This document shows positions 3,311-45,368 of a stretch of 64,000 nucleotides of DNA, piece by piece. Numbering within the stretch: position 1 is the stretch's first letter; every line of letters starts with the position of its first letter. Source of the DNA: Anaerolineae bacterium (GTDB lineage Bacteria; Chloroflexota; Anaerolineae; Caldilineales; Caldilineaceae); assembly GCA_030432295.1 (NCBI GenBank), contig JAUIHI010000003.1:62001-126000 (forward strand). Reading direction: 5' to 3'. A program made the translations under genes and the position numbers. The notes beneath the pieces are model-generated. The model had not been told where the DNA came from, ran no database searches, and worked only from the letters and a program-made list of their open reading frames with translations.

Positions 3311-3341
3311 CCAAACCAGCCTTTTGCAGGTGAATTCAAGC

Positions 3342-3377
3342 AAAGAGGGCCGACTTATCTCAAAGTCGGCCCTCTTT
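3342..3377. terminator. Bidirectional intrinsic terminator between convergent genes
   Basis: A 15-bp perfect stem (3342-3356 with 3363-3377) and a 6-nt loop. The GC-rich core is flanked by A residues on the left and a T5 run on the right, so it can act on both strands. It lies between the CAP protein gene and the convergent aldo/keto reductase gene. Confidence 0.85.
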
Positions 3378-3420
3378 TTGTTTCTTCAGCGCGGCTCGCT
3401 TCGCCGTTGAACGATCTGTA

Positions 3421-4401
3421 TTAAATCCAGCCGGGGGTAGTAATCGTTTCGGCGATGGGCAGGGCTTTGGCAATCTCTTCCGCCGACAAAGATGGAATTT
3501 CGGACGCGGCTGCGTTCTCCTCCATCTGTCGCCGGTTCTTGGCCCCGGCGATGACGCAGGAGACCCCCGGATGGTCCAGCACGAAGCGCAGAGATGCCTG
3601 CACCAGCGACCGCTCAGTTGTGGCCAGGAAGTCCAGTTCGGGCAGCCGGGCCAGACCCGCCACCGTCTCGGCGCGCTGGAAGCGTTCGTAGCGCAGATCG
3701 TTCTCGGCCAGGGATTGGGCATTGGCCCCGGAATACTTGCCGGTCAGCATCCCCTTGGCCAGGGGTACCCGAATCAGTGTGCCAATGTCTTCTGCCTTGG
3801 CCCAATGGAGCAGGTCGTCGGCGCCGCGTTCCAGCAGATTGTAGCCGATTTGCAGGATGTGGATAGGGCCGAAAGTGCGCAGCCGGTCGATGGCGGCCCG
3901 GTTGTTGGTGGAGATGCCATACCAGCGAATTTTGCCCGCCTGGCGCAGATCGGCCAGGGTTTCCATCACCGCGGGCATGGCCCAGTCGTAGGGTATGGCA
4001 TGGAGCTGGTAGAGGTCGATGGCCTCCATCTGCAATCGGCGCAGGCTCTGCTCGCAGGCGTCGGTGATGCGTCGCCGCACAGCCGCCTCGTCGGGTTTCT
4101 CTTTGTCCATTCCCTGGTTGGGCTGGACTTTGGTCGCCACAATCCAGCGCTCCCGCCGCCCCTGCAGTGTTCTGCCCGTCATCACTTCGCTGTGACCGTC
4201 GCCGTAGCCTTCGGCAGTGTCGATGAGATTGACGCCCAGCTCCTCGGCCCGGTGGATCAGAGCAATCGACTCGGCGTCGTCAGTCCCAGTCCAGCCGAAG
4301 CGGGAGCCGTCGCTCCGCTGCCACAGCCCGGCAATGGGGTAGGCCCCCAGCCCGATCTCTGATACTTTCAGTCCTGTCATGCCCAGTGTGCGATAGTTCA
4401 T
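3421..4401 (-). CDS. Aldo/keto reductase
   Basis: 326 residues, the normal length for the family. The AKR catalytic tetrad is visible: Asp61 and Tyr66 in DTAEGYGDG, Lys91 in VATKVQ and His134 in YQLHAI. The protein should be a soluble NADPH-dependent (beta/alpha)8 oxidoreductase acting on an aldehyde, ketone or sugar. The start MNYRTLGMTGLKVSEIGLG is the usual family N-terminus. A longer frame reading up to 4557 would run through the upstream cupin gene and is rejected. Its ATG overlaps the cupin stop codon (ATGA, 4 bp), which implies translational coupling. It is the last gene of a four-gene minus-strand operon. The substrate is not evident. Confidence 0.92.
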   Translation of the reverse strand: MNYRTLGMTGLKVSEIGLGAYPIAGLWQRSDGSRFGWTGTDDAESIALIHRAEELGVNLIDTAEGYGDGHSEVMTGRTLQGRRERWIVATKVQPNQGMDKEKPDEAAVRRRITDACEQSLRRLQMEAIDLYQLHAIPYDWAMPAVMETLADLRQAGKIRWYGISTNNRAAIDRLRTFGPIHILQIGYNLLERGADDLLHWAKAEDIGTLIRVPLAKGMLTGKYSGANAQSLAENDLRYERFQRAETVAGLARLPELDFLATTERSLVQASLRFVLDHPGVSCVIAGAKNRRQMEENAAASEIPSLSAEEIAKALPIAETITTPGWI

Positions 4402-4934
4402 TTGTGTTCCTCCGATTGTGGATGGCTGCGGTTCAGCCACAGTTCTGCCAGTGGCCCTGTTTCGCCGAAGAGTGGGTCTGTCGTTGGCAGGGGGACCCGG
4501 CGAATGTTGGCGAGGGACGTGGCGCGTTCCGCGGCTGTGCCTCGGCAGAGGTCCCAACTCTGTCCCGGCGGGTAGGCTCCCACCACCAGCAAATCTCCAC
4601 TGGCGTCGAGCCGCTTGTGGCCTGTCCCCGCGGGCAGGACGAGCACCGTCCCCGCGCTGGCGGTGAGGGTGATGCCCTGAGGACCGCCCAATTGCACCCG
4701 TGCCCAGCCCTGGACAATCGCCAGCACTTCGTGGGCGGTGCTGTGGTAGTGGTGGAAGGCATAGATGCCGTTGCGCCAGCTTCCACCCCAGCCGTTGCGT
4801 CGGAAAGTTTCCTCGGCGATGGACGCAGGGTCTGGCCCAGCCAGGGACAACCCGTCTTCGTAGATGAGCAGGGGCAGGCTGGGATGATTGGGAATCAGGC
4901 CGTCGTCGGCCAGCAGATAGAGTGTGCAGGACAT
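4398..4934 (-). CDS. Cupin-domain protein, YjlB-like
   Basis: 178 residues. The central region has cupin features: FHHYHSTAHEVLAIVQGWARVQLGG, with the His/Glu metal ligands of motif 1, and VLVLPAGTGHKRL, the Pro-Gly-His of motif 2. An overall layout of a PNHPSLPLLIYED N-terminus, GG.WRNGIYAFHHYH and a C-terminal stretch about pricing out a PPGQSWD/PLPTTDPLFG segment matches the YjlB subfamily, whose function is not established. It is probably a small metal-binding beta-barrel that binds a small molecule or acts on sugar derivatives. It lies 26 bp after the C45-family gene and overlaps the aldo/keto reductase gene by 4 bp. Confidence 0.85.
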   Translation of the reverse strand: MSCTLYLLADDGLIPNHPSLPLLIYEDGLSLAGPDPASIAEETFRRNGWGGSWRNGIYAFHHYHSTAHEVLAIVQGWARVQLGGPQGITLTASAGTVLVLPAGTGHKRLDASGDLLVVGAYPPGQSWDLCRGTAAERATSLANIRRVPLPTTDPLFGETGPLAELWLNRSHPQSEEHK

Positions 4935-4960
4935 CAGTGACTCCTCCGGGTGTTTCTAAC

Positions 4961-5992
4961 TCAGACTTCGTAGGCCGTCCAACTGCCCAGACAGCCGTGC
5001 CCCCGGCGCACGTGCAGCACCCCCGCCTTCGGTTCGGCGATGTAGCCGGAGATGGAGTGCATACCCTCCGCGCCGTGGCGACAGATGGCCGCTGGATGGC
5101 CCTGGTGGTCGGCCAGAATCTCCTTCATCCCATCCACTGTGATGCTGCCCCAGCGCTCTCGCAGCAGAATACGCATGCGGTCCAGCCGGGGGCAGGAATC
5201 GGCCAGGGAATTGGTCTCGTGGCAGGCGAAGTCGTCGCTCAGGTAGTGGTTGGCGTGGACCAGCCAGTCCGGGTGGTCGTCGCGGAAGGGGGCGATGCCT
5301 TCGGGCCGTACCTCCACACTTGCCATCCCGCCCTGAGCGTCGCACAGCACCACATTGGCCGCGGAACAGGTGCGGTGACGGGCCAGTACATCCAGACAGT
5401 CGGCCACATTGGACTGTTCCAGCAGCACCCGTTTCAGCGGATAGTGGGGCAGACCCGGCTGCCAGGGAAAATCGTAGAGGGCGTTGGCGAAGTGGGCCAC
5501 GCCGTGCTGGTTCATCCCCGCATAGCCCAATTGACCGGCAAAGGTGAAGATGAGGGCGCGGGGCCGTCCGTCGTTGGGTTTCAGATGCAGCAGGAGCGCG
5601 ACATCCGCATATTCGGGTTCCAAATCCTGATTCTGACCGGCCAAGGGCTGTCCGTTGGCTGTGGCTTCGCCGGTGACGACAAATGCTGTGCAGCCGCCGT
5701 CGGGCACTTTGCCCGCTTCGGCCCTGGCCTGGCAGAGCACCGCCTCCTCCAGACTGATGCCCGCGCCGTCGGCCAGCCCGCGGATTTCCTCCACATAGGC
5801 CGGGCTGAGACGCTGAATGGCAGGCAGGAATGTCATTGCGTTGCGGCAGAGTAGGTCCCGGCTTTTGCCTGTCAACTGCTCAATCAGCAGCAGATAACGC
5901 TGAATCAGGTAGGCTGCCTGACTGCCGTGCTGGTAGCCCATTCCGTAGGATGAGCCGGAAACTTCGATGAGGGGGAAAGTCTGTACGGGCAT
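4961..5992 (-). CDS. C45-family autoproteolytic acyltransferase/hydrolase (acyl-CoA:6-APA acyltransferase-like)
   Basis: 343 residues. The pattern matches the peptidase C45 / AAT family of Ntn hydrolases: GSSYGMGYQHG near the N-terminus, then DGGCTAFVV, where Cys101 would become the N-terminal nucleophile after self-cleavage between Gly100 and Cys101, then NQDLEPEYADVALLLHL and MNQHGVAHFANAL. Fungal AAT makes penicillins, but most bacterial homologues are uncharacterised amidases or acyltransferases, so no substrate is assigned. No signal peptide is seen, so it is probably cytoplasmic. It lies in an operon with an oxidoreductase (48 bp upstream), a cupin and an aldo/keto reductase, which suggests modification of an amide- or acyl-bearing small molecule. 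Confidence 0.85.
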   Translation of the reverse strand: MPVQTFPLIEVSGSSYGMGYQHGSQAAYLIQRYLLLIEQLTGKSRDLLCRNAMTFLPAIQRLSPAYVEEIRGLADGAGISLEEAVLCQARAEAGKVPDGGCTAFVVTGEATANGQPLAGQNQDLEPEYADVALLLHLKPNDGRPRALIFTFAGQLGYAGMNQHGVAHFANALYDFPWQPGLPHYPLKRVLLEQSNVADCLDVLARHRTCSAANVVLCDAQGGMASVEVRPEGIAPFRDDHPDWLVHANHYLSDDFACHETNSLADSCPRLDRMRILLRERWGSITVDGMKEILADHQGHPAAICRHGAEGMHSISGYIAEPKAGVLHVRRGHGCLGSWTAYEV

Positions 5993-6040: not shown

Positions 6041-7225
6041 TCATCCGGCCACGGCCACATCGGCTGCGGGCATGGCTACCTGACAACTCTGCCGGGTATC
6101 CGCCGACTCCCGCGCCCACAGGCAGGTCAGCGCGCTGAGAATGCCCGCGTCCAGGGGGCTGCGGGAGGGTGTGCCGTCGCGCATGGCCATCAGAAAGTCG
6201 TAGCAGAGTTCCCGGTCCCCGCCGAAGTGGGGCATATTGCCTGAAAAGTCGATGGTATCCACAGTGGGCGACGTGTGGCTGAAAACTTTGACCTGGTTGC
6301 GATACCAGTCGAATTCGATGGTGCCGCGGTAGCCGTAGAGCCGCGCCCCGCGCTGGGCAGCCAGATAGCGGGTGAAGAAGTTCTGTGTGTAGCTGACCTG
6401 CGCGCCGGACGCATATTCGAGCAGGCAACTGCCCATATCCTCAATCTCAAAACCCTCCGAGAAGACGCAGTAGCCGTTGCGGTCGGGGAAGTCAACTTCG
6501 GCGCTTTCATAGCCGTTGCGAAAACGGGTGAATGGACTTTCGGTGCAGCTTTCGCGCAGGTGGCAGTCCTTGCACTGGAGGTCGAAGGGCATATCACCAC
6601 CGAAGACCCGCCGGGCTTTTTGTGCACTGACCCAGACCGGCGGCTGGCCGAGCAGATAGTTGATGTAGTCCAGGTCGTGGGTGGCCTTTTGCAGAAAAAG
6701 GCCGCCGTTCTGGTCGAAGTTGCGATGCCAACTGCGAAAGTAGACAGTGCCGTAGGGCACATTGCACCAGGCCACCACATTCTCCACTGTGCCAATCTGC
6801 CCGGAGTCGATAATCTCCTTGACCCGCTGCACAACCGGACTCAGGCGTAGGGGAAAGGAGACAACCGTCGGCGCGGGATAGTTGCGGAAGGTCTCGTCCA
6901 GAAGGCGTAGCTGCCCGAAGGTGATGGCGACCGGCTTTTCCAGAAAGAGGGGCAGGCCGGTCGCCGCGACTTTGCAGGCCATCTCCGTGTGTAGCTGGCA
7001 GCGCGTCCCGATCATCACCCCGTCCAACTCACCGGCCTGGGACAGCAGTTCGTCGGCAGATTCGTAGAAGGTGGCCGCTGACAGGAAGCCGTCGTCCGCG
7101 GCCTGGATATCCCGCCAGCGGGGGTCGGCCACAGCTGTCACCTGGTAGGGGATGTGGAAGACGCCCAGGGCCCGGGCCATATGGGAGACCCGACCGCCGT
7201 ATCCGATGATTCCAACACGCAACAT
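6041..7225 (-). CDS. Gfo/Idh/MocA family oxidoreductase with a cysteine cluster
   Basis: 394 residues. The N-terminal Rossmann fold starts MLRVGIIGYGGRVSHMA and carries the EKP motif (residues 96-98, LFLEKPVA), and the C-terminal half contains the ATHDLDYINYLLG helix of the family (His/Asp at the active site). The protein should be an NAD(P)-dependent dehydrogenase for a sugar or cyclitol. Residues 218-227 hold a Cys-x2-Cys-x5-Cys cluster (CKDCHLRESC), which is absent from the textbook family members and could bind zinc or an iron-sulfur cluster. It is the first gene of the four-gene minus-strand operon. Its start is the ATG at 7225, which follows a GAGGAATCCCCC-type leader. Confidence 0.88.
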   Translation of the reverse strand: MLRVGIIGYGGRVSHMARALGVFHIPYQVTAVADPRWRDIQAADDGFLSAATFYESADELLSQAGELDGVMIGTRCQLHTEMACKVAATGLPLFLEKPVAITFGQLRLLDETFRNYPAPTVVSFPLRLSPVVQRVKEIIDSGQIGTVENVVAWCNVPYGTVYFRSWHRNFDQNGGLFLQKATHDLDYINYLLGQPPVWVSAQKARRVFGGDMPFDLQCKDCHLRESCTESPFTRFRNGYESAEVDFPDRNGYCVFSEGFEIEDMGSCLLEYASGAQVSYTQNFFTRYLAAQRGARLYGYRGTIEFDWYRNQVKVFSHTSPTVDTIDFSGNMPHFGGDRELCYDFLMAMRDGTPSRSPLDAGILSALTCLWARESADTRQSCQVAMPAADVAVAG

Positions 7226-31566: not shown

Positions 31567-32847
31567 TCACCCGCAATTGCCCTCCATCGTCAGCCGGATG
31601 GTGGTTCCTTCCCCCGGACGGCTGTGGATGTGGAAATGTGCGCCCAATTGCTCGCCGCGGCTCTGCATATTTTTCAGACCCCAGCCCGCGCCTATGACAG
31701 CGTTTGCATCGAAGCCCTGGCCGTTGTCGCTGACTTCTACCACAATTCTTCTCATGCGTCCTGCCTGGGGTTCACACTGTAGGGTAACGCGGATTTTGCT
31801 GGCGTTGCTGTGGCGGCAGCTATTGGTGAGCGCTTCCTGGACAATGCGCAGCATATTCGTCTCCTGTGCTGGTGTCAGCAGACCCGCTTCGTAGGCCAAT
31901 TGTGACTGAATCAGAATTGCGGAGATGCGCTGCTGGCGCTCGATGACCCGGCGCAGGGCGACGAGCAGGCCGTTGTCCAGAATGTCTGCATTGAGATCGT
32001 TGATCAGATTGCGCAGCTCCTGGGCGGCCAGGGTGACTTCCCCTGCCAGTTCGCTCATCTCGGCCTCGATGTGGGGGGATGTCTGTTGGCTGAGATATTT
32101 GCCCCGATTCAGACGGATACGCACGCCCAGTAAAGTCTGGAGCAGGCCATCGTGGCTTTCCCGGGCGATGCGCGCCCGCTCTTCCTGGATGGCCTGGTGC
32201 AATTCCAGGTTCTTGCGCGATTCGATCTCCCGTCCCAGTTCTTGGGTGCGCTGCTCCACAAGCTCTTGCAGATGGGTCTGGTATGCGTATACTTCCTGGC
32301 TGGACTCTTCGAGGGAGTGGGCCATCTGATTGAAGGAGACACCGATCTGGCTGAATTCGTCTTGCCAGGTGCTGCCGGGAATGCGATAGGCCAGGTTGCC
32401 CTGCTGCACCTGTCCAAAGCTGTTGATGATCTGGGCCAACGAGCTTTGCAGGGTGCGGCGGTAATAGGTGGTGTAGAGCAGTACATAGAAAAGAGTACCA
32501 CCCACAGCAAACCAGAGCAGGGGCGACAGAAGGTTGCTGAGCATCCTGGCCTGGGGGCGGTAGAGCGCTGCTGTCACGAATTGCACCTGCATTTGGGTGC
32601 CAAAAATCTGGATTGGATCGATCTCCGGTGCCTGGTATCGTAAGAAAGTCAGGGTGACGATCCAACCCAGGACGGAAATCAGACCCAGGAATATCGTCAA
32701 TCCTGCCCCCATCACCCGAATCTCCAGCCCGGTGGGAGCCTGAGGCGAGCTGAGATAGGCAAATAGGGCAACCAGAATGGCGGTTGTCACCAGGATATCC
32801 GCCGCGATCAGCATCCAAATGGGCAGGGTAACGATGACAATTGCCAT
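31567..32847 (-). CDS. Sensor histidine kinase, NarL/DesK-like; C-terminal part of a frameshifted gene
   Basis: 426 residues. It holds two hydrophobic segments, a HAMP domain (SFGQVQQGNLAYRIPGSTWQDEFSQIGVSFNQMAHSLEE), a coiled coil, a HisKA_3 dimerisation domain with the phospho-acceptor His in RIARESHDGLLQTL, and a HATPase with NxxxCRHSNA, SDNGQGFD and GWGLKNMQSRGEQL. It aligns along its full length with the paralogue at 33548-35569, whose extra N-terminal membrane domain corresponds to 32808-33473. The two frames overlap by 40 bp, and a shift of one base would rejoin them. The ATG at 32847 has no good ribosome site, so it is read as half of a broken or frameshifted gene. Confidence 0.8.
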   Translation of the reverse strand: MAIVIVTLPIWMLIAADILVTTAILVALFAYLSSPQAPTGLEIRVMGAGLTIFLGLISVLGWIVTLTFLRYQAPEIDPIQIFGTQMQVQFVTAALYRPQARMLSNLLSPLLWFAVGGTLFYVLLYTTYYRRTLQSSLAQIINSFGQVQQGNLAYRIPGSTWQDEFSQIGVSFNQMAHSLEESSQEVYAYQTHLQELVEQRTQELGREIESRKNLELHQAIQEERARIARESHDGLLQTLLGVRIRLNRGKYLSQQTSPHIEAEMSELAGEVTLAAQELRNLINDLNADILDNGLLVALRRVIERQQRISAILIQSQLAYEAGLLTPAQETNMLRIVQEALTNSCRHSNASKIRVTLQCEPQAGRMRRIVVEVSDNGQGFDANAVIGAGWGLKNMQSRGEQLGAHFHIHSRPGEGTTIRLTMEGNCG

Positions 32848-33473
32848 GAAAATGAAGAGATAATGACTAACATACCGAACACTGCCAGCAAAAGGCCCCG
32901 ATAGAAGCGGCTCACCTCACCGCGGGGCGCAAGCAGTGCCCGGTGCAGATGTTGCCCAAGGGAAAGATCGGGCGCGGTTTCAGCCATCCACAGTTTGCGC
33001 ATGACCAACCACAGCACCCACGTGCTCACAATGAGGGAGGGCAATGCCATAGGCCAGACCAGGGGTTGAGCCAGGCCAGTCTGGGAAAAATGCCACAGAC
33101 GCAGGCAGAAGTAGCAGACTTCCAGGCCCAGAAATCCCGCAATCGTCCAGGAGGTGAAGCGGGCTTCCTGGCGGCGGGCGAATGGCTCGAAGGGGGGCAG
33201 GGCATAGATGGCCCTGGCGACTGCGTGCCAGGCCAGCATTCCAAGGCCAATACGGGCATAGGCGAGAAAATCGACGCTTCGATCTTCCGAAACACCGATG
33301 AATAGGGATAGGAGAAGGGTGGTCCAAAGCCAGCCAATGGCCTGAATCATCCACCGGGTGTGGAGATTCTTCATCCCAGGCGTGCGCCTGACCGCGACCT
33401 GCAAGTAGACCAACAGAAACCCTGCCAGTAGCAGCATTGCTGCCTGCGACAGGGTGTAGGGACGAATCAACAT
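32808..33473 (-). CDS. Membrane sensor half of a frameshifted histidine kinase
   Basis: 221 residues, with several transmembrane segments, starting MLIRPYTLSQAAMLLLAGFLLVYLQ. It matches the N-terminal region of the paralogous kinase (IYIRPYTVSQVALLLLIVLILFFLYQ; FARFLYALPP; LLLRKLWSAE). After GLLLAVFGMLVIIS the frame loses similarity and stops, while the next frame continues with YLFIFMAIVIVTLPIW as in the paralogue. The switch lies near 32855-32875 and needs a -1 shift. No slippery heptamer is seen there, so a one-base loss (real or assembly error) is the likeliest cause. Confidence 0.7.
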   Translation of the reverse strand: MLIRPYTLSQAAMLLLAGFLLVYLQVAVRRTPGMKNLHTRWMIQAIGWLWTTLLLSLFIGVSEDRSVDFLAYARIGLGMLAWHAVARAIYALPPFEPFARRQEARFTSWTIAGFLGLEVCYFCLRLWHFSQTGLAQPLVWPMALPSLIVSTWVLWLVMRKLWMAETAPDLSLGQHLHRALLAPRGEVSRFYRGLLLAVFGMLVIISSFSWQLSSLPCPFGC

Positions 33474-33547: not shown

Positions 33548-35569
33548 TCAATCGTCTGTTCTTTTTTGCCTGCTTTCCATCGTCAACCGCACAAACGTTC
33601 CTTCCCCCGGACGGCTGTGAATGTGGAAATATGCGCCCAATTGTTGGCTGCGACTCTGCATATTTTTCAGACCCCAGCCTGCTCCCTCCACCGCAGTCGT
33701 CTGGAAACCGTCGCCGTTGTCAGCGATTTCCAGTTCGATTTTTGCCCCACATCCTGCCTGGGATTCACACTGCATAGCTACCCCGATTTCGCTGGCGTTG
33801 CTGTGGCGGCAGCTATTGCTGATGGCCTCCTGCACAATTCGCAGCACATTGAGCTCCTGGGCTGGAGTCAGCAGCCCAGGTTGATAGCCGATCTGCGCCC
33901 GGATGGGGATGCCGAAGCTACGCTGCTGGCGCTTGATGATCCGGTCCAGGGCGGTAGGCAGACCTTCGGTCAGAATATCTGCGTTGAGATCGTTGATCAG
34001 ATTACGCAGTTCTTGAGCAGCCAGACCAACCTCACCCGCCAGATCGAGCATTTCAGACTGAATACGCGATGGCGCCATCTGGCTGAGACGCTTGCCCCGA
34101 TTCAGACGAATGCGTACCCCCAGCAAAGTCTGGAGCAGACCGTCGTGGCTGTCTCGGGCGATGCGTGCCCGCTCTGCCTGGATCGATTGGTGCAGTTCCA
34201 GATTCTTGCGCGCTTCGATCTCCTGGCCCAGTTCTGTTGTACGCTGATCCACAAGCTCTTTCAGATGGTTCTGGTAGCCGTATACATCCTGGCTGGTCTT
34301 TTCCAGCGCCTGGGCCATCTGGTTGAAAGAGTTGGCAATCTGTCCAAATTCATCGTTCCAGGGCAGGGAGGGTATCCGATAGGCCAGATTGCCAGTTTCT
34401 ACCTGCCCAAAACCGGCGGTGATTTTTTGCAGTGCGACAGCCAGTGTACCTCGATAGTAATAGGAGAAACTGAGAATAAAAGCCAGGCTGCCCGCGGTCT
34501 GAAACCAGATTACTGTCCATAACAGATGGCTGATGGAGGATGCCAGCTCGGGAAAATGTGGGGGTGACAGAAAGAGGGGACGCATTTGGGAACCAATCAC
34601 ATCGGCGATGGGAATCCCCGGCCCCTGGAAATTGAGAGCGGTCATTGTGAGCAGCCAGCCCAGGCTGCTGACCAATCCCAGAAAGATCACCAGCCCGGCC
34701 CCGATCACCCGGACGATGAGCGGGACCGGCACGTGATGATAGCGCAGGTAGATAAAAGCAAGCGTTACTGTACTGCTCATGACCAGCAGATCGCTGACCA
34801 GTGTGGCCCATACCGGCACATGGGAATGTTGGAAAGTCACATAGAGCAGATTCAGACCGATAAGACTGGCTATGATCAGCAGAAACCAGCGGTAGAGCGT
34901 GCCCACATTGGTCAAAGGCACGCTCAGAATTCGGCGCAAAGTCTCTCCCGGTCCGGCAGTCCCGCTCTTTTCAGCGCTCCACAGTTTGCGCAGGAGCAGC
35001 AGCAAAGCCCAGAGGCCGACCAGCATCAGCGGCATTTCCAACACCAAAGGCCGCTGATGTGTATCCCCCGTTTGCCAGAAAATCCCAATGCGAGCGGCTG
35101 AATAGAGAAGCTCCAGCCCGGCCAAGAGGAGCATAATTCGGGAGAAATACCATTCTTCCCGGCGGAAGCCGAAGCCCTGCACCGGTGGTAGGGCGTACAG
35201 AAAGCGGGCGAAGGCGTGATAGAGAAGCAGCGCCGACAGGTTGCGTATGTAGTAGAGCGAAGCAACCAGTGGGCTGTCTACACTACCGGAGATCAGCGTG
35301 ACAAAGATAGCCACGCCGCCCCAGGCGACAGCTTGCATAATCCAGAGTGTGTCAACCCTTTCTCTGTCTGGGCGCTGTCGAAAGGACTGGTAGAGAAAAA
35401 AGAGGATTAGTACAATCAGCAGAAGTAGTGCCACTTGGGAGACTGTATAGGGACGAATATAGATGTTCGACTCTGATCCGCTCAGCCAGAAGGGATTGAA
35501 CACTGGGTTTCTCACGAGGGTGGCTTCGGTATAACGGAAGGGAATTAGGTGTGTGGTCCAGTATATCAT
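33548..35569 (-). CDS. Membrane sensor histidine kinase, NarL/DesK-like
   Basis: 673 residues from the ATG at 35569, though the exact start is uncertain (no strong ribosome site). Domain order: about seven or more hydrophobic segments in the first 330 residues, two more bracketing a short extracytoplasmic loop (about 340-390), a HAMP domain (GFGQVETGNLAYRIPSLPWNDEFGQIANSFNQMAQALEK), a coiled coil, HisKA_3 with His in RIARDSHDGLLQTL, and HATPase (SNSCRHSNAS, IADNGDGF, GWGLKNMQSRSQQLG). It is divergent from the response-regulator gene at 35681, its likely partner. The ligand of the membrane domain is unknown. Confidence 0.88.
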   Translation of the reverse strand: MIYWTTHLIPFRYTEATLVRNPVFNPFWLSGSESNIYIRPYTVSQVALLLLIVLILFFLYQSFRQRPDRERVDTLWIMQAVAWGGVAIFVTLISGSVDSPLVASLYYIRNLSALLLYHAFARFLYALPPVQGFGFRREEWYFSRIMLLLAGLELLYSAARIGIFWQTGDTHQRPLVLEMPLMLVGLWALLLLLRKLWSAEKSGTAGPGETLRRILSVPLTNVGTLYRWFLLIIASLIGLNLLYVTFQHSHVPVWATLVSDLLVMSSTVTLAFIYLRYHHVPVPLIVRVIGAGLVIFLGLVSSLGWLLTMTALNFQGPGIPIADVIGSQMRPLFLSPPHFPELASSISHLLWTVIWFQTAGSLAFILSFSYYYRGTLAVALQKITAGFGQVETGNLAYRIPSLPWNDEFGQIANSFNQMAQALEKTSQDVYGYQNHLKELVDQRTTELGQEIEARKNLELHQSIQAERARIARDSHDGLLQTLLGVRIRLNRGKRLSQMAPSRIQSEMLDLAGEVGLAAQELRNLINDLNADILTEGLPTALDRIIKRQQRSFGIPIRAQIGYQPGLLTPAQELNVLRIVQEAISNSCRHSNASEIGVAMQCESQAGCGAKIELEIADNGDGFQTTAVEGAGWGLKNMQSRSQQLGAYFHIHSRPGEGTFVRLTMESRQKRTDD

Positions 35570-35680
35570 GGTAAAATGGCCTGGGGCAATGCATGTCCCA
35601 CACGCCTCCCAACCGGATACATCCCAGCTTGCGGGTAGGCGTCTCATTCAGTGCATTCGTGCCATTCAGAGAGATTTACT

Positions 35681-36352
35681 GTGGCTATAACAAAAATACT
35701 CATTGTGGATGATCACGACTTCTTCCGCCGTTCTCTGCTCTTCCCGCTGGAAATGGAAAATCGCATCGAAATCGTCGGCACGGCTACCTCTGGGGATCAG
35801 GCCATCGGCCTGGTGCGCAGCGCGCGGCCCGATGTGGTATTGATGGACCTGAATATGCCCTACCTCTCCGGTCTGGCCGCGATGGAGCGCATTACGCCGG
35901 ATGAGACCGCTCCAGCCGTTCTGGTGCTGACGGGCGTGGACGATGCCGACAGCATTCTGCGCGCCTTTGCCGCCGGTGCGGTGGGCTATCTGCGCAAGGA
36001 TATGATCACCGACGAGATGCTGGTCAGCGCCATCTTCACAGTTGCCAACGGCGGCATCTTTCTGGACCCCAAAACTTTTGCCCTGCTGCGCGCGGTGCTG
36101 CCGACCAGCCAGCCCCGGCTGGTCGAGGAACGGCTGCGCCTCTCTCAACTATCACCCGACCAAGCGGAGCTGCTCCGTTTGGTGGCCCTGGGCTATGAAA
36201 ATGAGCAGATCGGCCTGGAACTCCAGGTCGCCTCCAAGACGATCTCCAATCGTTTGAGCCAGATATACCTGCTGCTGCGCGTCAGCAACCGGGTGCAGGC
36301 TTCCAACTTTGCTCTGCGCAACGGCTTGGTGGACATCAGCGACACCCTCTGA
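35681..36352 (+). CDS. NarL/FixJ-type response regulator
   Basis: 223 residues from the GTG at 35681, chosen because the receiver domain begins there (VAITKILIVDDHDFFRR); upstream in-frame starts add 10 residues without a better ribosome site. Receiver: acidic pair DD, phospho-acceptor Asp56 in VVLMDLNMP, Thr in LVLTG and Lys in GYLRKDM. C-terminal HTH of LuxR type: LSPDQAELLRLVALGYENEQIGLELQVASKTISNRLSQIYLLL. Divergently transcribed from the kinase at 33548-35569, so the pair probably forms a two-component system. Targets are unknown, but a repeated promoter module lies upstream of the next two genes. Confidence 0.92.
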   Translation: MAITKILIVDDHDFFRRSLLFPLEMENRIEIVGTATSGDQAIGLVRSARPDVVLMDLNMPYLSGLAAMERITPDETAPAVLVLTGVDDADSILRAFAAGAVGYLRKDMITDEMLVSAIFTVANGGIFLDPKTFALLRAVLPTSQPRLVEERLRLSQLSPDQAELLRLVALGYENEQIGLELQVASKTISNRLSQIYLLLRVSNRVQASNFALRNGLVDISDTL

Positions 36353-36386: not shown

Positions 36387-36450
36387 GGGAACAGTTCCCA
36401 CAATCCTTCTCCTTTTTCCCGATACAGATCTGCCATTCATCGCGTATGCT
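36387..36450 (+). promoter_or_regulatory. Regulatory module copy 1: dyad + TTTTTCCCG + -10, upstream of the receiver gene
   Basis: GGGAACAGTTCCC (36387-36399, GGGAA-N3-TTCCC), 13 bp, TTTTTCCCG (36413-36421), 23 bp, TATGCT (36445-36450). The identical arrangement, with all three intervals equal, recurs at 36914-36977. The -10 ends 6 bp before the ATG at 36457, so the transcript would be nearly leaderless. Confidence 0.6.
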
Positions 36451-36456
36451 TTGGGA

Positions 36457-36891
36457 ATGGCAACCATTCGACTTCTGATAGTGGAAGATCACGACTTCTT
36501 TCGGCGCACCATCGCGCTTCTATTGGAGATGGAAACGCGGATCGAAATCGTCGGCGCGGTCGCGTCCGGCGAGCAGGCCATTGGGCTGGTGGATAGCCTG
36601 CGACCGGATGTGGTGCTGATGGACCTAAATCTGCCCGGTCTGTCCGGTCTGGCAACAATCGAGCAGATTGGGGCCAGTGCCAACGCGCCCGCCATCCTCG
36701 TTCTGACAGGTGCAGAGGATGTGGAGAGTGTCCGGCGTGCCTTTGCCGCGGGCGCGGCGGGCTATCTGCGCAAAGAGATGGTTGGCGATGAACTTTTGAT
36801 CAGCGCCATTTTTACAGTTGCCCGCGGTGGCATCTTTCTGGATGCCACGACTTTTGCCCTGCTGCAAAGCGCATTCTCTGCTTCCGGCTAA
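36457..36891 (+). CDS. Stand-alone response-regulator receiver domain protein
   Basis: 144 residues, receiver only; it ends 20 residues after the last receiver strand, with no HTH. The sequence is a close paralogue of the neighbouring response regulator over the receiver domain (RLLIVEDHDFFRRTIALLLEMETRIEIVGAVASGEQAIGLV; Asp56 in VVLMDLNLP; GYLRKEM). It may be a phosphate sink, a competitor of the full-length regulator, or a truncated duplicate. The ATG at 36457 is used; a TTG at 36451 would add two residues. The promoter spacing suggests leaderless translation. Confidence 0.85.
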   Translation: MATIRLLIVEDHDFFRRTIALLLEMETRIEIVGAVASGEQAIGLVDSLRPDVVLMDLNLPGLSGLATIEQIGASANAPAILVLTGAEDVESVRRAFAAGAAGYLRKEMVGDELLISAIFTVARGGIFLDATTFALLQSAFSASG

Positions 36892-36913
36892 CAGCCTTGC
36901 CTTCACCGTCGCC

Positions 36914-36977
36914 GGGAACTATTCCCGGAAAGACGCTCTTTTTTCCCGCACCAAAACATCTCTGTGTAAATGATAAT
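36914..36977 (+). promoter_or_regulatory. Regulatory module copy 2: dyad + TTTTTCCCG + -10, upstream of the giant protein gene
   Basis: GGGAACTATTCCC (36914-36926; CCGGGAACTATTCCCGG if extended), 13 bp, TTTTTCCCG (36940-36948), 23 bp, GATAAT (36972-36977). Spacing is identical to copy 1. A start of transcription near 36984 would give a leader of about 65 nt before the ATG at 37050. Confidence 0.6.
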
Positions 36978-37049
36978 AGTGGATGATACCAATCCTACGA
37001 TTTCACCGCCGAACAGCACCGATTGTCACCCATTCCTGTGGAGGTACCG

Positions 37050-40000
37050 ATGGACCGCCCCAAGCGTCTGCTCGCTTCTTTCGTTCGCATTCTCATCATC
37101 GCCGGACTGCTATTTCAGCAGATCGCCATCCCCCTAGACGCTCTGGCTGCTGCGGGTCGGGTATCGTCTCCCACCGAAATCAGCCTCCTGCGCGGCCAAA
37201 ATGAGGAGGTGAACGCCTATCTGGAACGCGTTGCCCTGGCTCAGCCGGACCTCTTTCAGCAGGCGGCTCTGGCCGCGGTCCAGGATGCCTTCAACGGCAA
37301 TATCCCCGAGGTAGCGGGGGATCAGGCTATGGAGGAGCAGATCGCCTACTATCTCAACAACGCCGTCGCCCAGAGCGAGGATACACCTCCGCCACCCCTG
37401 GGGACCAATGGATCGAGCATCGACGGCGACACCTATCGCTGGAATTCGTCCCAGTTGGACCCAAGCGGATTGGGTGGCAGCGACTGGCAGATGACCGCCC
37501 GCCCCGGCGGTGATCCCGAACTCTTTGCCCAATATTTTGAAGAGATGGTGGCGAATGAACCGTTGCCATCCAGCTTGCCTTTCCCTGAGGATTTGCAGGC
37601 GCAGGCGGCAGCACCAGCATTCAGTCAGATCGCGTGGGCTGGTCCACCTGTCGATGCAATTGTGCGAGAGGTCGAGAAGGCTACTACAAAGAGTGCCGAA
37701 AAAACCACTGAGAAAACCATCGAAAAACCGGTTGAAAAGCGTCACAAAGTCATCGCCTACACCGGCAAACAGGAGCGGGTCGATCTGTGGGCTGCCGAGG
37801 CATCCCTGCCTTTGATTCCTGACCCGGCGCTATCCACCCAGACCGCTTCTCTGGCTGATCAGAGCAACGAGTCGGCCAAAGTGGAATCTGTGTTTGTCGT
37901 AATGGCAGAGGTGCTTCAGGCCGATCTGGCCGCGACCATCACCGCGCCCACCACAGCCACTTTTGGCTCGGTCATCACCTACACCGTTACAGTCACCAAC
38001 CACGGCCCCAACCCGGCCAGCGCGGTGCAGTTGACCCAGACTCTGCCCGCCAACGGAATCTACACAGGTACTGTGTCCGGTTGTACTGGCAGCAGCGATA
38101 GTGTAGCCTGTGGCTTGGGCGCGCTGGCGGTCAACGAAAGCCGCAATCTCAATCTGGCCGTGCAGATGAAAGGCAACGGTGTGGTCACCGCGACTGTCAC
38201 CGCAAAGGATAGCGGCACAGTCGATCCCGGCGGCCAGGCAGCCACGGCCAGTGCAGCGGTCACAGTCACATCGACTAGCCGCCAGCAGATGACTGTTGGC
38301 AACGTAGTCATTGCCGCCAACAGCTTCGTCACTGTGACGAATCAGGTGGAAGCCTCGGGCGCAGTGGAAATTGGTGCCAAGCAGGCGGACGACAGCATCG
38401 CCTTCCATCTCAAACTCGGCCCGGACGATGCAGTTAGCTGGCTGGCCGGTCAAGAGAAGCTGGACGGGGACGGAACCCTCTATCAGGTACTCAAGAATTT
38501 CAAACTCCTGGTTGGCCCCTTCAGCGTGGATGCTTCCGAAGATAACCCGTTGATTGTGCCCGGCGAGGAGAGCAAATCCGCCATCAAAGAGTTGGGCGGC
38601 TTCAGTGTGATTGGCAAGCCGTCGATTACCCAAGTCGCGGTGATCAGCGGAACCGCTTCCGTCTCGGCCACCATCGAATTCAATCTGCCTGGCCTGCCGG
38701 TTACCCGGACCGTAGCCATTACCTCCACCCCTGGCGTCACCACGACTCAGGTCGTTACAATCAGTGAGAAATCTCTGGTCGCCCTCATCAAACCCGGCGG
38801 CAAAGTGGAAGGAAACCTCGGTAAATTTTCGATGGTTCTCGCTGGCCTGGATATTGAGATCGCCAAGGCCACAATGTCCGATGAGGCGATCAAAGTCAAA
38901 GAGGCGGAATTGACCCTGCCTGATACTTTTGGCGGTCTCAGTGCTGTCATTTCCGATATCGTCATCAAAGCCGATAGTATCAGTTTCGGCGGCGCGGGGG
39001 TCAAAATCCCCTTCCCGGATATTTACCCCGTGGGCAAACCGGTGACGACAACCACCGCGGCACTGGCGACGACGGTACTGGCCGCCAGCACATCTGTGAC
39101 CGAAACCGGCACAGTGACGCCGACGATAGCGATTGTCAAGAATTCGGCAACAGTCGGCTATTTTGACGGCAAATACAGCCTGCAACTGGAGGGGACCCTT
39201 CAATTGTGGCTGCCCAACAATCAGCGCAATATCCCCATCGAATTCAAGATCGACGATTCGGGCGAGTTAGAGGCCACCGTCAAAGAGATTACCCTCAGCG
39301 TGGCAGGCCAGGACCTGCTAATGAAAAATGTTGTGCTGAGCAACGACGGCCTGAAGGTCGAAGAAGCGACTCTGACCATCCAGAGCCAGGTGGAGAAGAG
39401 CAAGGAGAAGGCGGCCAAGGCCCGGCTCATGCGTCTGGAACCCGACGCCAACCCCCGAGCCGACGAGAAGAAGCCGGACAAAAAGCTCTCGGTTATTGTA
39501 AAGAAAGTCGCCATTGGCAAGGACGGAATTTCCATTGGCGGCGCTGGGATCACCAACTATCTGCCAGACAGAAAGATTGGCAAGACAGCCACCTTTAGCA
39601 AGCTCGAATTCACGGTAGTGGTAAACGATCCGACCGGCGACGCCTCCCTGGAGTTGGCGTTGAAGGGCGTCCTTAAAATTCATATCGAAGGCAATGAGCA
39701 GGAGACGAAGTTCTCCGCCAAGATGGACAAGAAGGGCAAGTTCTCGGGCAAGATCGCAGAATTGAGCCTGACCATCGCCAAGTCCAAATTGGAGTTGAGT
39801 GAGATTGAGTTTGACTCCAGCGGACTCAGCACAAAATCGGCGACCCTGACCCTGCCGGCAGCCCTGAACAACATCAAGGCAACTATCAATCAGGTCAAAA
39901 TCGACGAGAATGGCCTCTCCTTTGGGGATGCCAGTGTAGCCATTCCGGTGGAATTCACCATCGGCAAGAAAGATGCCACCAACAGTCTGGCGGTGAAGGG

Positions 40001-43000
40001 CAACCTCACGCTCGTGCTGGCCCAGGATCGCACCTACGGCTTCGCCATTGAGGGCACAGTCACCATCAAACTGGCCTCCCAGACCGCGGAAGCAAGCGGT
40101 TCATTGCGCATGGACACCTCCGGTGCGGTGCGTGGCTCGGTCGATAGCTTCAAACTGGTCATCGCCGGTATGGAACTGGCCATCAAATCGGCCACCATCG
40201 AAGATGGCGGCTTGCAGGCCAGCGAAGCCACCCTTTCCATCCCCAAGGCTTGGGGCGGTCTTTCGGCCACGGTCTATCAGATCAAAGTTTCGGAAGATGG
40301 CTTCTCTATGGGGGGCGGCTCCTTCAAGCTGCCGGAGGTAAAGGTGGGCGGAATGTCGCTCACCCTGGAAGGCACGCTCAAGAAGGAAGGCGACGGCTAT
40401 ATCATCGGCGCGGGCGGCAGCCTGAAGATGCCCAATGTGGGCGGCGCTGGTTGTAGCGGCCTGGGTGTAGCGGTAGAAATCTCTACCGGCAGCAGCCAGG
40501 AAATGGTCATGCGCATCGAACCCCTGACAGAAGATCAGGTGGACGGCTTCCAACTGCGCAAAGTGAGCGTCTCACTCCAATGCACGATTCCTCTGGGACC
40601 CAGCGGCTTCGACCTGACCTCTGTCAGCGGCACAGTCACCCTCTCGGAGAATGTGACCAAAATCGAAATCAAAGTCACAATGGAGAGCAAATTGCGGGTT
40701 GGTGGCTTCAATGCCCTGACCGCCGATGGCGACATGACCATCGAATCGGTCAAGGACCCCAAGAAGTTTGAAATCGGCATTGGCGCTTCCATGAAGCTCT
40801 TCTCGATGTTCGAGGCGGCCCGGGCCAAGGCCCTCATGCGCTTCACCGACGGCGATGTGCCCTTCCTCTTCAAGGCCGAGTTGAATATCAACGCGGTGAT
40901 TGCCAAGGGTGAAATCAAGCTCAACGCCTGGACCAAGAATGGCGACTTCCACATGACTGGCCGTATCTACGGCGAGGTGGGTGTGCGCCGGGGCGCGCTG
41001 GCGAACAGTTGTTGGACCATCCGGGTTCCCTACATCGAGCGCTGGTCCTGGGGATTCCCGATATTCGGTCTGCGGGATACCCAACTCTGCGCGGTCATCC
41101 CCCCGTCGGACTGGTTCATCAGCGCCACTATGGAGTTTGGTGAATTCCAGAAGAGCGGCAGCACAGCTTGGGGCTTCAAGGCCGGTGTCAGCGTCCTCGG
41201 CAAGAATTACGGTATCTACGTAGACTCAGACGGCAAGTTCAGTGTAGGCAATGTGGACCAATACAGACTGGTCGATGCGCCCACCCTGCGCCGGGCACGC
41301 CTGATCCACGAGAAGGTGGCCGCGGGTGCTCTGGCCCGTGCCTCTCTAAGTGCCGAGGAACTGGACCTGTTCGAGAGCTACCACTTCGTGGATGATCAGA
41401 TATTCATCGACGTGGTGACCATCACAAAGCCCGGCGATCTGGGCGTCACCGTCCTGCGTTCGTCCGAGGACGCCGATGTGGTTGTCACTCTGGTGCGTCC
41501 GGATGGCCTGTACATCACCGGCGTCAATCCGCCCGACAATGTGACCTTCCGCGAGGAAGTTCTGGCAGCCGAAAACATCACCGATCCGACAACCCGTGAG
41601 CAGATTCCGGTCGGTGAACTTGTGCCCACCATCCAGACGATTATGAACGTCACCAACGTGGGGATGGGCAAATGGCAGGTGATGCTGAACCGGGAGCCGA
41701 CCTACGACTTCATCATCAATGTGGACGGTACGGTCTACGGCCCGCCGGTGGAGAAGCTCGCCATCGGAGGCCAGGACACCCTGGACAATCAGGTCGATCT
41801 GACCTGGACCCAGACCGCGCAGATCACCAGCACCGTCTCGATCTACGCCACCACCGACACCATCACCACCACCGCCAGCTACACCGGGACCCAGACGGTC
41901 ACCGACGCCAGCGGTATCCAGGCCACCCAGGTGGTCACGACCGACCTGGGCACAGTGACCCAATTCGGCGGTCAATATGTCACATCCTTCACCTATCTGC
42001 CCGGCAAGCAGACGCCGACCGAGACCCTCGATCTCTCGTCCCTGCGCAGTGGAACCTACAGTCTCTGGCTGGAGGTGGACGACAGTCTGAACCCGCCTAC
42101 CCGCCGCTACTTCCCCGGCACGGCCACTGTCTGGCACGACTGGGAAGAGAGCTGGCAGGCTAATCTGACGGTGGACCCGAAGCTGGGCAGCCTGACCATC
42201 GCCTGGGACGAACACCCCAACCCGGATATAGACGGGTATGAGGTGCAGTTGACGGCCAACGGTGCCAACGCGGACGAAGACACCTTCGCCCTGGATGCAG
42301 GCCAGACCTTCTCCCAGACCCTCACCGGTCTGTCGGCCCGGCAAGCCTATTCGGTAACTGTGGCCGCCTATGACACAGGCACAGGCCGCTTCTCCGATTC
42401 CGAAAGCCTGCGCGCCCAGCCCCTCAGCGCACCCTTCACCCTGGCGGCAAACCCCGCTGGCGTGACGGTCAACGGCGGCAACGGGGTCAGCCTGGCCTTG
42501 CAGATCGCTTCGGCGGTCAACCCCTACCCGGATTCGGTCTTCCTGGACCTGGTGGACATGCCCGACGGCATGGATATGGCCCTGACCACCGACATCCTGA
42601 CACCGACGGTGGCGGGCGCCCAGGCCGGGCTGATCATCACCCCGGCGGACACCCTGCCCGGCGGCGTCTATACTGTCACAGTGGAAGCAGCCGCCAACGG
42701 CGATGTGAAACAGGTGCAGATTCCTGTGACCGTGCAGGAGCCTGCCTTCAGCCTGCAAGCCAGCAGCAACGGCCTTACAATCTTCGACGGCGGCAGCGCC
42801 AGCGTGGAGATCAGCGCCGCCTACCAGTTCGGCGAAATGGACGAGATCGACGTTGACCTGGAAACATTGCCCCCTGGCCTCGACTGGGATTTCGACAATC
42901 TCAGCTTTGCACCGGGCGGCAAGGCCACTCTGACCCTGACCGACACGGGCTATCTGGCCTTCGGAACCTACGAAGTGACGATCTACGGCACGGACTACGA

Positions 43001-45368
43001 ACACGAACGGACCCTTTCCCTGCCTCTGACCGTCGCCGGTTTCGAGATATACACGGACTGGGATAGTTGGGCTGCTCTGAATGAGGAAGAGGTAGCGTTC
43101 GATGTGACGCTGGAAGGCGCGGCCTGGCCGGATGCTGTGACATTCGGCTTCGATCCCGCCTCTCTGGGCGACCGCTTCATCGCTGAGCTATCGAGCAACA
43201 CCGCCACTGTCCCGGCTACAATCACGGCACGGGTGACAGCCCTGGCCGACACGCCACCGGGAGTCTACGAACTACTGCTCCACGCCACCAGCGGGAGCGT
43301 TGCCAAGATGCTGCCACTCTATCTAACAGTGACGGACGACGAGACCGCCACCGACCTGCAAATGAGCTACAGCGCCACCCCGGAGGATAACGTCGTCATC
43401 GCTGGTGAGAGCTACAGCTACGCCCTGGCCCCCCGCAACATCAGTGCGGTCGCCGCGGTGGATGTATCCGTGGCGGAGACGACCTTCGGGGGCGACTATC
43501 TGAGCCTGGTGGACGGCGTTGGCTGTGCCGAGGACGACTTTGGCGACCAGATGGACCTGACCTGTGACCTGAGTGACATCTCTGCCGGCAGCCACGGCGA
43601 GGAAACTGTCATCACCTGGCAGGTGGACGCGGACGCCCCCGACGGCGAACTGATCACCCACCAGAGCGATGTGCTGGCCGACGAAACGACCAATACAGAG
43701 ACGTCCACCCTGGACAATCTGGCCGAACTCACACTCACGGTGGCGCGGCTGGCCGACCTGACCCTGCAAGCCCAGGCAAGCCCGGCGCTGGCCGGGGAAT
43801 CCATGACCTACACGGCCACAGTCAGCAACGACGGGCCATCCTACGCCGACGACGTAACGGTGGAGTTCTACCTGCCCACAGGGGTCAGCCTGGAATCCAC
43901 AGGGCCTGGCTGTGTGCAGGACGCCGAACTCGTCGTCTGCGAGGCTGGCGAACTGGCTCCCAGCGAGAGCGCTGTAGCCACCATCACCGTCGCCATCGAA
44001 CCCGACCAGCAGGAAGGGCTGGAGACGCTCATCTTCGCCAGCAGTGCGTCGGACGATCCCTTCTTCGACAATAACTACGACTTCGTATTCTCCAATGTGG
44101 GCGCTTTCGCCGAGTTGCTGGTGAGCATCACACCGGAGCGTACCAACGCCACCGAGGGCGATACGGTCAAGTACACTGTTGTGGTGACCAACACTGGGCC
44201 ATCCCAGGCCACAGATGTGGATGTGGCACTGATCATCCCGGATATTCTGGACGTTGTGGAGTTCCGGGTGGGGGATGTGGAGAGCAGCGCCGACGAACTG
44301 GTCATCGCTCCCCAGAAGAGTGTGACCCTGACTGTCTCGGCCCTCTTCCTGCAGGACAGCGCCGGTGGGCCTGTGCAGATTGACGTGGAGACCGACGCGG
44401 TGGAAGCAGACTTTGCCCAGAGCAGCGATCAGAGTCTGACCGTCGCCAATGCCAATCCCACCGCCGTACTCAGTGGTACGCTGACTGTCAACGAAGGCGA
44501 GTGGGGTATTCTGACCGTCGCGGCGGATGATCCCGGAGTAAACGATCCTCTCACTGTGGCGTGGGACCTGGACAACGACGGCCAGTTTGACGACGGCAGC
44601 GAGGCCATCGTTCTCTTCGATGCCCGTGCCATCAACGGCCCGGCCACCCGGCCCATCGCAGTGCGAGTGCAGGATGGCGATGGCGGCCAGGCGATTGCCA
44701 ACGGGACGGTCACTATCCAGAATGTGGCCCCGGTGGTGGATGTAGGCCCCGACCAGTTCCAGCAGTTCGACGGCGCCTTCGTCCTCGACTACGAGTTTGT
44801 GGATACATCGCCCAGCGATTCGCCCACAACCCGGGTCGATTGGGGGGATGGCACAGTAGAAAACCTGCCTCTGACCGCCCGTAGCGGCACGGCCCAGGTC
44901 AGCCACACCTACAACAAAGTGGGCAAGTTCACCGTCAATCTCTGTGTCAACGACAACAGCGGCGGCGAAGGCTGTGACCAGCTCATCGCCCAGGCCGCCT
45001 GTCGTGAAAACGGGCTGGCTGCACAGATCAGCACCGCAGGCGACGACATTCGCATCGACCTGAAGAATGCCAGCGGCACTGTGACGATTCCCGCAGGTTT
45101 GCCGCTTACCCTCTACAACGGGGCAAGCGTCCTGCAAACCTTCAGTCTGGCCCAGGAGATGCCCGTGGGCGCAGCCCAATCGCTCAGCTACACCTGGCCC
45201 AACGGTGCGCCGAATGGCAGCTATACAGCGAAGCTGGCTATCGACGACAACGGTCAGGGGGTCAAGACAACACCCCTCTGCGCCGGGACAGCCGAGAAAA
45301 CTGTGGCCGCCCGGCTGTTGATCTACCTGCCCATCGTTCATCAAAACAGTCTGTCGGCTTCCGAGTAG
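37050..45368 (+). CDS. Giant secreted surface protein with DUF11 modules, four internal repeats and PKD-like domains
   Basis: 2772 residues. The ATG at 37050 has GGAGG six bases upstream and opens a signal peptide (RLLASFVRILIIAGLLFQQIAIPLDALAA). Order: a charged region with Lys/Glu-rich stretch (about 210-235); a DUF11-type module (about 290-410, ITYTVTVTNHGPNPA); a central block about 440-1200 with four repeats of about 130-155 residues whose ends read GxxxxEAxLTLP...GLSAxIxxVxIxxDGxSxGGAG; a beta-rich region to about 1450; an FN3-like module near 1700; further beta-sandwich modules; two DUF11 modules (about 2236, 2353); two PKD-like modules (about 2473-2640, VDWGDGTVE). The C-terminus LLIYLPIVHQNSLSASE contains the YLP-type motif, not quite terminal. 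Function is unknown; a long cell-surface fibre or sheath protein is plausible. Promoter module upstream. Confidence 0.85.
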   Translation: MDRPKRLLASFVRILIIAGLLFQQIAIPLDALAAAGRVSSPTEISLLRGQNEEVNAYLERVALAQPDLFQQAALAAVQDAFNGNIPEVAGDQAMEEQIAYYLNNAVAQSEDTPPPPLGTNGSSIDGDTYRWNSSQLDPSGLGGSDWQMTARPGGDPELFAQYFEEMVANEPLPSSLPFPEDLQAQAAAPAFSQIAWAGPPVDAIVREVEKATTKSAEKTTEKTIEKPVEKRHKVIAYTGKQERVDLWAAEASLPLIPDPALSTQTASLADQSNESAKVESVFVVMAEVLQADLAATITAPTTATFGSVITYTVTVTNHGPNPASAVQLTQTLPANGIYTGTVSGCTGSSDSVACGLGALAVNESRNLNLAVQMKGNGVVTATVTAKDSGTVDPGGQAATASAAVTVTSTSRQQMTVGNVVIAANSFVTVTNQVEASGAVEIGAKQADDSIAFHLKLGPDDAVSWLAGQEKLDGDGTLYQVLKNFKLLVGPFSVDASEDNPLIVPGEESKSAIKELGGFSVIGKPSITQVAVISGTASVSATIEFNLPGLPVTRTVAITSTPGVTTTQVVTISEKSLVALIKPGGKVEGNLGKFSMVLAGLDIEIAKATMSDEAIKVKEAELTLPDTFGGLSAVISDIVIKADSISFGGAGVKIPFPDIYPVGKPVTTTTAALATTVLAASTSVTETGTVTPTIAIVKNSATVGYFDGKYSLQLEGTLQLWLPNNQRNIPIEFKIDDSGELEATVKEITLSVAGQDLLMKNVVLSNDGLKVEEATLTIQSQVEKSKEKAAKARLMRLEPDANPRADEKKPDKKLSVIVKKVAIGKDGISIGGAGITNYLPDRKIGKTATFSKLEFTVVVNDPTGDASLELALKGVLKIHIEGNEQETKFSAKMDKKGKFSGKIAELSLTIAKSKLELSEIEFDSSGLSTKSATLTLPAALNNIKATINQVKIDENGLSFGDASVAIPVEFTIGKKDATNSLAVKGNLTLVLAQDRTYGFAIEGTVTIKLASQTAEASGSLRMDTSGAVRGSVDSFKLVIAGMELAIKSATIEDGGLQASEATLSIPKAWGGLSATVYQIKVSEDGFSMGGGSFKLPEVKVGGMSLTLEGTLKKEGDGYIIGAGGSLKMPNVGGAGCSGLGVAVEISTGSSQEMVMRIEPLTEDQVDGFQLRKVSVSLQCTIPLGPSGFDLTSVSGTVTLSENVTKIEIKVTMESKLRVGGFNALTADGDMTIESVKDPKKFEIGIGASMKLFSMFEAARAKALMRFTDGDVPFLFKAELNINAVIAKGEIKLNAWTKNGDFHMTGRIYGEVGVRRGALANSCWTIRVPYIERWSWGFPIFGLRDTQLCAVIPPSDWFISATMEFGEFQKSGSTAWGFKAGVSVLGKNYGIYVDSDGKFSVGNVDQYRLVDAPTLRRARLIHEKVAAGALARASLSAEELDLFESYHFVDDQIFIDVVTITKPGDLGVTVLRSSEDADVVVTLVRPDGLYITGVNPPDNVTFREEVLAAENITDPTTREQIPVGELVPTIQTIMNVTNVGMGKWQVMLNREPTYDFIINVDGTVYGPPVEKLAIGGQDTLDNQVDLTWTQTAQITSTVSIYATTDTITTTASYTGTQTVTDASGIQATQVVTTDLGTVTQFGGQYVTSFTYLPGKQTPTETLDLSSLRSGTYSLWLEVDDSLNPPTRRYFPGTATVWHDWEESWQANLTVDPKLGSLTIAWDEHPNPDIDGYEVQLTANGANADEDTFALDAGQTFSQTLTGLSARQAYSVTVAAYDTGTGRFSDSESLRAQPLSAPFTLAANPAGVTVNGGNGVSLALQIASAVNPYPDSVFLDLVDMPDGMDMALTTDILTPTVAGAQAGLIITPADTLPGGVYTVTVEAAANGDVKQVQIPVTVQEPAFSLQASSNGLTIFDGGSASVEISAAYQFGEMDEIDVDLETLPPGLDWDFDNLSFAPGGKATLTLTDTGYLAFGTYEVTIYGTDYEHERTLSLPLTVAGFEIYTDWDSWAALNEEEVAFDVTLEGAAWPDAVTFGFDPASLGDRFIAELSSNTATVPATITARVTALADTPPGVYELLLHATSGSVAKMLPLYLTVTDDETATDLQMSYSATPEDNVVIAGESYSYALAPRNISAVAAVDVSVAETTFGGDYLSLVDGVGCAEDDFGDQMDLTCDLSDISAGSHGEETVITWQVDADAPDGELITHQSDVLADETTNTETSTLDNLAELTLTVARLADLTLQAQASPALAGESMTYTATVSNDGPSYADDVTVEFYLPTGVSLESTGPGCVQDAELVVCEAGELAPSESAVATITVAIEPDQQEGLETLIFASSASDDPFFDNNYDFVFSNVGAFAELLVSITPERTNATEGDTVKYTVVVTNTGPSQATDVDVALIIPDILDVVEFRVGDVESSADELVIAPQKSVTLTVSALFLQDSAGGPVQIDVETDAVEADFAQSSDQSLTVANANPTAVLSGTLTVNEGEWGILTVAADDPGVNDPLTVAWDLDNDGQFDDGSEAIVLFDARAINGPATRPIAVRVQDGDGGQAIANGTVTIQNVAPVVDVGPDQFQQFDGAFVLDYEFVDTSPSDSPTTRVDWGDGTVENLPLTARSGTAQVSHTYNKVGKFTVNLCVNDNSGGEGCDQLIAQAACRENGLAAQISTAGDDIRIDLKNASGTVTIPAGLPLTLYNGASVLQTFSLAQEMPVGAAQSLSYTWPNGAPNGSYTAKLAIDDNGQGVKTTPLCAGTAEKTVAARLLIYLPIVHQNSLSASE

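Follow-up and report, generated by a model that had tools for sequence, protein, structure and literature searches.

The window, a stretch of 64,000 nucleotides from a genome that belongs with the Caldilineaceae, contains a locus in which the gene of a histidine kinase (HK1) is divergent from that of a response regulator (RR1), which is followed by genes for a receiver-only protein and a giant surface protein (Table 1). The true start of HK1 probably lies downstream of the start of its longest open reading frame. RR1 is assigned to the NarL/FixJ type by its receiver domain (PF00072, 2.3e-23) and its C-terminal helix-turn-helix (HTH) domain (PF00196, 1.1e-08), and its nearest solved structures are those of VraR, NarL, and DevR. 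The receiver-only protein is 66% identical to RR1 and retains the acidic pocket (E10/D11), the phosphorylatable aspartate (D56), the threonine (T84), and the lysine (K106); it ends after 144 amino acids, without an HTH or other output domain, and its counterparts in the related genomes G001 and G020 are receiver-only as well. Two further observations concern neighbouring genes. A second kinase, a paralogue of HK1 (31567-33473, minus strand), is split over two overlapping frames near 32808-32847 as judged by tblastn, owing to a frameshift, a split gene, or an assembly error. A common C-terminal pattern, possibly a sorting or anchoring signal, is found in the large secreted open reading frames that end at 3310 (+), 27430 (-), and 48438 (+), less exactly in the one ending at 45368 (+), and also at the related locus L077.

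Table 1 Genes and composite promoter elements of the locus (positions in the window; promoter positions relative to the predicted transcription start)
Feature	Sequence	Position	Strand	Remarks and basis
HK1, membrane histidine kinase (HAMP, HisKA_3, HATPase_c)		33548..35647	-	Pfam; divergent from RR1
RR1, NarL/FixJ-type response regulator (receiver, GerE/LuxR HTH)		35681..36352	+	Pfam; structure matches
Composite, copy 1		36387-36450		Between RR1 and receiver gene
Dyad 1, GGGAA-N3-TTCCC	GGGAACAGTTCCC	36387..36399	+	Direct reading; invariant in 8 sites
Third element, copy 1	TTTTTCCCG	36413-36421		N13 after dyad 1, N23 before -10-like hexamer
Proximal half-site 1, within third element	TTCCCG	36416..36421	+	About -41 to -36; site comparison
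-10-like hexamer 1	TATGCT	36445..36450	+	Same TAnnnT-ATG spacing in G001 and G020
Receiver-only response regulator, RR1 paralogue		36457..36891	+	Pfam; alignment
Composite, copy 2		36914-36977		Between receiver gene and surface gene
Dyad 2, GGGAA-N3-TTCCC	GGGAACTATTCCC	36914..36926	+	Direct reading; 8-site comparison
Third element, copy 2	TTTTTCCCG	36940-36948		N13 after dyad 2, N23 before -10-like hexamer
Proximal half-site 2	TTCCCG	36943..36948	+	Site comparison
-10-like hexamer 2	GATAAT	36972..36977	+	Predicted start about 36984, leader about 66 nt; direct reading
Shine-Dalgarno sequence of surface gene	GGAGG	37040..37044	+	Read directly
Giant secreted/surface protein (apparent signal peptide, DUF11, CARDB, PKD, fn3)		37050..45368	+	Pfam

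Both the receiver gene and the surface gene are preceded by a composite motif consisting of GGGAA-N3-TTCCC, N13, TTTTTCCCG, N23, and a -10-like hexamer, with a dyad that begins 23-35 nt past the stop codon of the preceding gene. A preliminary description had claimed two copies with identical intervals between these elements and a receiver gene almost without a leader; direct reading bears out the former, and the latter agrees with the promoter geometry. When the transcription start is predicted seven bases after the -10 element, the dyad is centred near -64 and TTCCCG, at about -41 to -36, borders directly on the -35 position; a recognisable -35 hexamer at the right spacing was not found at either copy. 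The predicted start of the receiver transcript is the A of the ATG codon at 36457. Since this codon follows the first base of TAnnnT by exactly 12 nt in all three genomes with an intact locus (G000, the source genome, G001, and G020), the receiver gene is probably leaderless; for the surface gene, by contrast, the predicted leader comprises about 66 nt and includes GGAGG. In the spacer of the eight sites compared below, positions 21-25 (36407-36411 and 36934-36938 in the window) show a recurrent, weaker TTCCC-like element, exact in both G020 sites; the resulting arrangement is TTCCC-N7-TTCCC-N4-TTCCC, and the element may be a further half-site.

Close orthologues of the receiver/RR1 pair are present in three other genomes, namely G001 (two loci), G020, and G017, and a wider orthologue search in 85,000 species gave close relatives in Caldilineaceae loci only. 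The gene order (divergent kinase, NarL-type regulator, receiver-only gene or its relic, surface gene) recurs at three more loci of two relatives, the whole arrangement being repeated in G001 C234, G001 C116, and G020 C108; an open reading frame similar in size to HK1 adjoins RR1 divergently in L076, L077, L078, and L079. At all three of the further loci with the full arrangement (L076, L077, and L079), the surface gene and the receiver gene (or what remains of it) are each preceded by the composite. In L076 and L079, the gene downstream of this module encodes a homologue of the surface protein. In G020 (L077, minus strand, about 2107-5790), the second promoter precedes an unrelated, repetitive, beta-helix-like surface protein in place of the DUF11/PKD protein of G000 and G001. 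At the second G001 locus (L079, minus strand, about 6370-6700), only a relic of 62 codons, without the phosphorylatable aspartate, remains of the receiver gene, and GTG occupies the position of the expected leaderless start, while both sites are intact. The swapped surface protein and the decayed receiver gene, each with its sites kept, suggest that the module outlasts its cargo. In G017, the RR1 orthologue lies beside a divergent open reading frame of kinase size; it is not followed by a receiver-only gene in the manner of the other loci, and the composite with 0 mismatches is absent from the whole genome.

The comparison of the eight sites at these four loci (one in G000, two in G001, one in G020) separates the elements sharply from their surroundings. 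All ten arm bases of the dyad are invariant in the eight sites. The third element is more precisely TTCCCG with a variable run of T, in which TTCCC departs once by one base and the following G is invariant; in one related site it is preceded by N15 rather than N16. TAnnnT follows TTCCC by 23-24 bases in seven of the eight sites; the relatives refine the spacing between TTCCCG and the -10 element to 22-23, and GATAAT of copy 2 is the sole -10 hexamer that breaks the TAnnnT pattern. Mean pairwise identity reaches 1.0, 1.0, and 0.96 in the three elements, whereas the upstream flank has 0.38, the N3 loop 0.37, the spacer 0.47, and the downstream stretch 0.30. With third codon positions of the genes 50-69% identical across the comparison, these stretches had time to diverge, and invariant elements amid diverged flanks and genes are therefore under selection. 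Purifying selection thus acts on a DNA operator-promoter; since the eight sites share ancestry and all loci belong to one family, they do not count as eight independent events.

These data leave next to no room for the possibility that the two copies arose by chance or that a recent duplication copied both stretches. A duplication did occur here, RR1 and the receiver-only gene being paralogues, but it is old, because their third codon positions are only 51% identical. Moreover, the elements are invariant while the flanks of the sites are near random (26-39% identical), and the region upstream of RR1 carries no copy. Conservation at four loci already refutes this explanation.

A further alternative is that the dyads are transcription terminators of the respective upstream genes, as their position shortly after a stop codon would allow. 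The predicted fold of copy 2 has an energy of -14.8 kcal/mol (z -2.1) and includes an outer stem followed by T6, and this hairpin in the source genome, together with the atypical -10 hexamer of the same copy, is also a counterpoint to the promoter reading. Copy 1, on the other hand, folds no better than shuffled sequences (z -0.3), and a terminator scan reported neither site. Across the eight sites, the stem letters are invariant without compensatory changes, which indicates that a DNA sequence rather than an RNA hairpin is recognised, and the T-run is not kept; the TTCCCG and TAnnnT elements at fixed distance would be left unexplained. An intrinsic terminator, defined as a GC-rich stem directly followed by a T-run, was hence dismissed for copy 1 and as an account of the sites in general, and we regard it as very unlikely altogether, only copy 2 being hairpin-like.

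The earlier expectation that such a pattern is unlikely by chance was examined by motif searches, in which the pattern written backwards served as control, and no frequent occurrence at random positions was found in the genome, the family, or the class. The full composite has only two matches in the 6.7-Mb genome, both at this locus. With up to three mismatches, the 35-bp composite yielded these two as exact matches and a third, poor site with 3 mismatches (control, three), and with 0 mismatches and loose spacing it gave two (control, none). The dyad alone occurs 13 times (control, three), and in the other 11 instances TTCCC does not follow at this distance; almost all of these are covered by longer open reading frames on either strand. 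Among 46 family genomes searched with loose spacing, the composite was detected in eight and the control pattern in none: two matches in G000, four in G001, one perfect match and one with TTCCT in G020, and scattered single matches elsewhere. Several of the matches elsewhere were rejected, as that in G004 C123 has an unrelated context and lacks TAnnnT at the right place, those in G004 C60 and G015 C72 differ in spacing, and that in G049 C125 was not supported. In 396 genomes of the class, six of 12 matches fell at the loci described here, the rest being scattered singles (control, one). Counts of 2-mismatch sites were near control level in G017 and G020 and above the respective controls in G000 and G001. 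No further regulon members were recognised among those 1-2-mismatch sites of G000, G001, G017, and G020 that were inspected singly, a minority of the 2-mismatch sites in the case of G000 and G001.

The locus therefore contains a real, conserved, and locus-specific operator-promoter pair. Judged from sequence comparison, the two copies probably represent one operator-promoter of a dedicated, locus-specific activator, likely RR1, that drives both the receiver-only and the surface gene, and the paired composites at four loci lend support to the earlier proposal of one regulator for a signalling and a surface gene. RR1 as the binder, activation as its effect, the start sites, and the feedback role of the receiver-only protein are what we infer. 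A dimer would bind the perfect dyad CGGGAA-N3-TTCCCG, and a second protomer or dimer would occupy TTCCCG two helical turns (21 bp) downstream, where the protein could contact RNA polymerase, the promoter having retained no more than a TAnnnT -10 element. The likely binder, phosphorylated RR1 under the control of the divergent kinase, would switch on its leaderless receiver-only paralogue together with the giant surface protein, and the receiver-only product might in turn draw phosphate from the kinase as a sink or pair with RR1, so that the signal would be damped.

Two other assignments of the operator have to be weighed. It might serve a regulator encoded elsewhere, either another transcription factor or an alternative sigma factor, with RR1 as a mere neighbour. 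There is no direct tie between RR1 and the site, the promoter of RR1 itself carries no site within the window and hence no autoregulatory signature, and G017 retains RR1 without any perfect site, which is a counterpoint to the assignment to RR1. However, the site is confined to RR1 loci, with two per locus in every genome with the full arrangement, as fits a locally encoded dedicated regulator, and a perfect dyad spanning 13 bp suits a dimeric HTH protein better than a sigma factor; a regulator from elsewhere thus appears unlikely, if not negligibly so. Less probable still, with roughly half that weight, is that RR1 binds the site and represses. The sign of control is not readable from sequence alone, and the proximal half-site touches the -35 region, but the missing -35 hexamer at both copies suits an activator-dependent promoter and the distal dyad near -64 is in an activator-like position. 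As to autoregulation in the relatives, a near-palindromic GGGA/TTCCC cluster between kinase and regulator in G001 (L076, 2219-2275) was rejected as a candidate site, since it apparently lies inside a longer, genome-specific inverted repeat (by eye) and is not common to G000 or G020. The kinase-regulator intergenic region of G001 (L076, 2100-2350) apparently contains a long, imperfect inverted repeat that does not occur in the window and might represent a mobile or repetitive element of small size.

Returning to RR1 as the dedicated activator, we tentatively consider a more far-reaching possibility, to which we would give somewhat less than even weight: the locus may be a self-contained cassette whose regulon is the locus itself, in which the activator turns on its own truncated, leaderless version as a damper along with an interchangeable giant surface protein, the operator module being kept while the surface gene was swapped in G020 and the damper decayed at the second G001 locus. 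The mechanism as such is of an ordinary kind and the instance an undescribed one; our literature searches found neither a paper describing this motif nor, in the library searched, one on this bacterial family that mentions response regulators. The analysis supplies a testable operator sequence and a candidate regulator for the Caldilineaceae. It also ties exchangeable giant surface proteins to a kinase-regulator pair that is conserved, and it provides a naturally occurring case in which a regulator would control a truncated copy of its own receiver, a potential design for negative feedback.

The closest parallel is provided by the DevR/DosR promoters of Mycobacterium tuberculosis. DevR target promoters contain closely packed sites, in which a weaker proximal site, overlapping the -35 element, adjoins a strong distal one (PMC3029386). 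The locus described here shares with them a candidate activator of the NarL subfamily and a GGG-rich dyad, and its geometry of a distal and a proximal site, reckoned from the predicted start, would fit theirs. It differs in its 13-bp GGGAA-N3-TTCCC dyad, in a proximal element that is a half-site, and in having only two sites, both at its own locus, instead of a large regulon. The DNA-contact residues of DevR are K179, K182, and N183 (PMC5999986); RR1 has K, S, and N at these positions in the alignment, thus sharing two of the three with serine in place of K182, and KTxSN is kept in all RR1 orthologues, and RR1 is therefore an analogue rather than an orthologue of DevR. Regulators of the NarL/VraR/DesR type resemble RR1 in domain order and are its best sequence matches, but the gene of RR1 is divergent from that of its presumed kinase, and the genes of a truncated, receiver-only paralogue and of a giant surface protein come after it. 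In leaderless genes, a TAnnnT signal occurs about 12 bp ahead of the start codon (PMC3160421); the receiver gene repeats this distance, but here, unlike in those genes, the signal is conserved along with an operator upstream of it. Some single-domain response regulators, such as MrrA, act as sinks or hubs (PMC5964349); the receiver-only protein is likewise a free-standing receiver with intact phosphorylation residues, but it is closely paralogous to the HTH regulator encoded next to it, which apparently also controls it.
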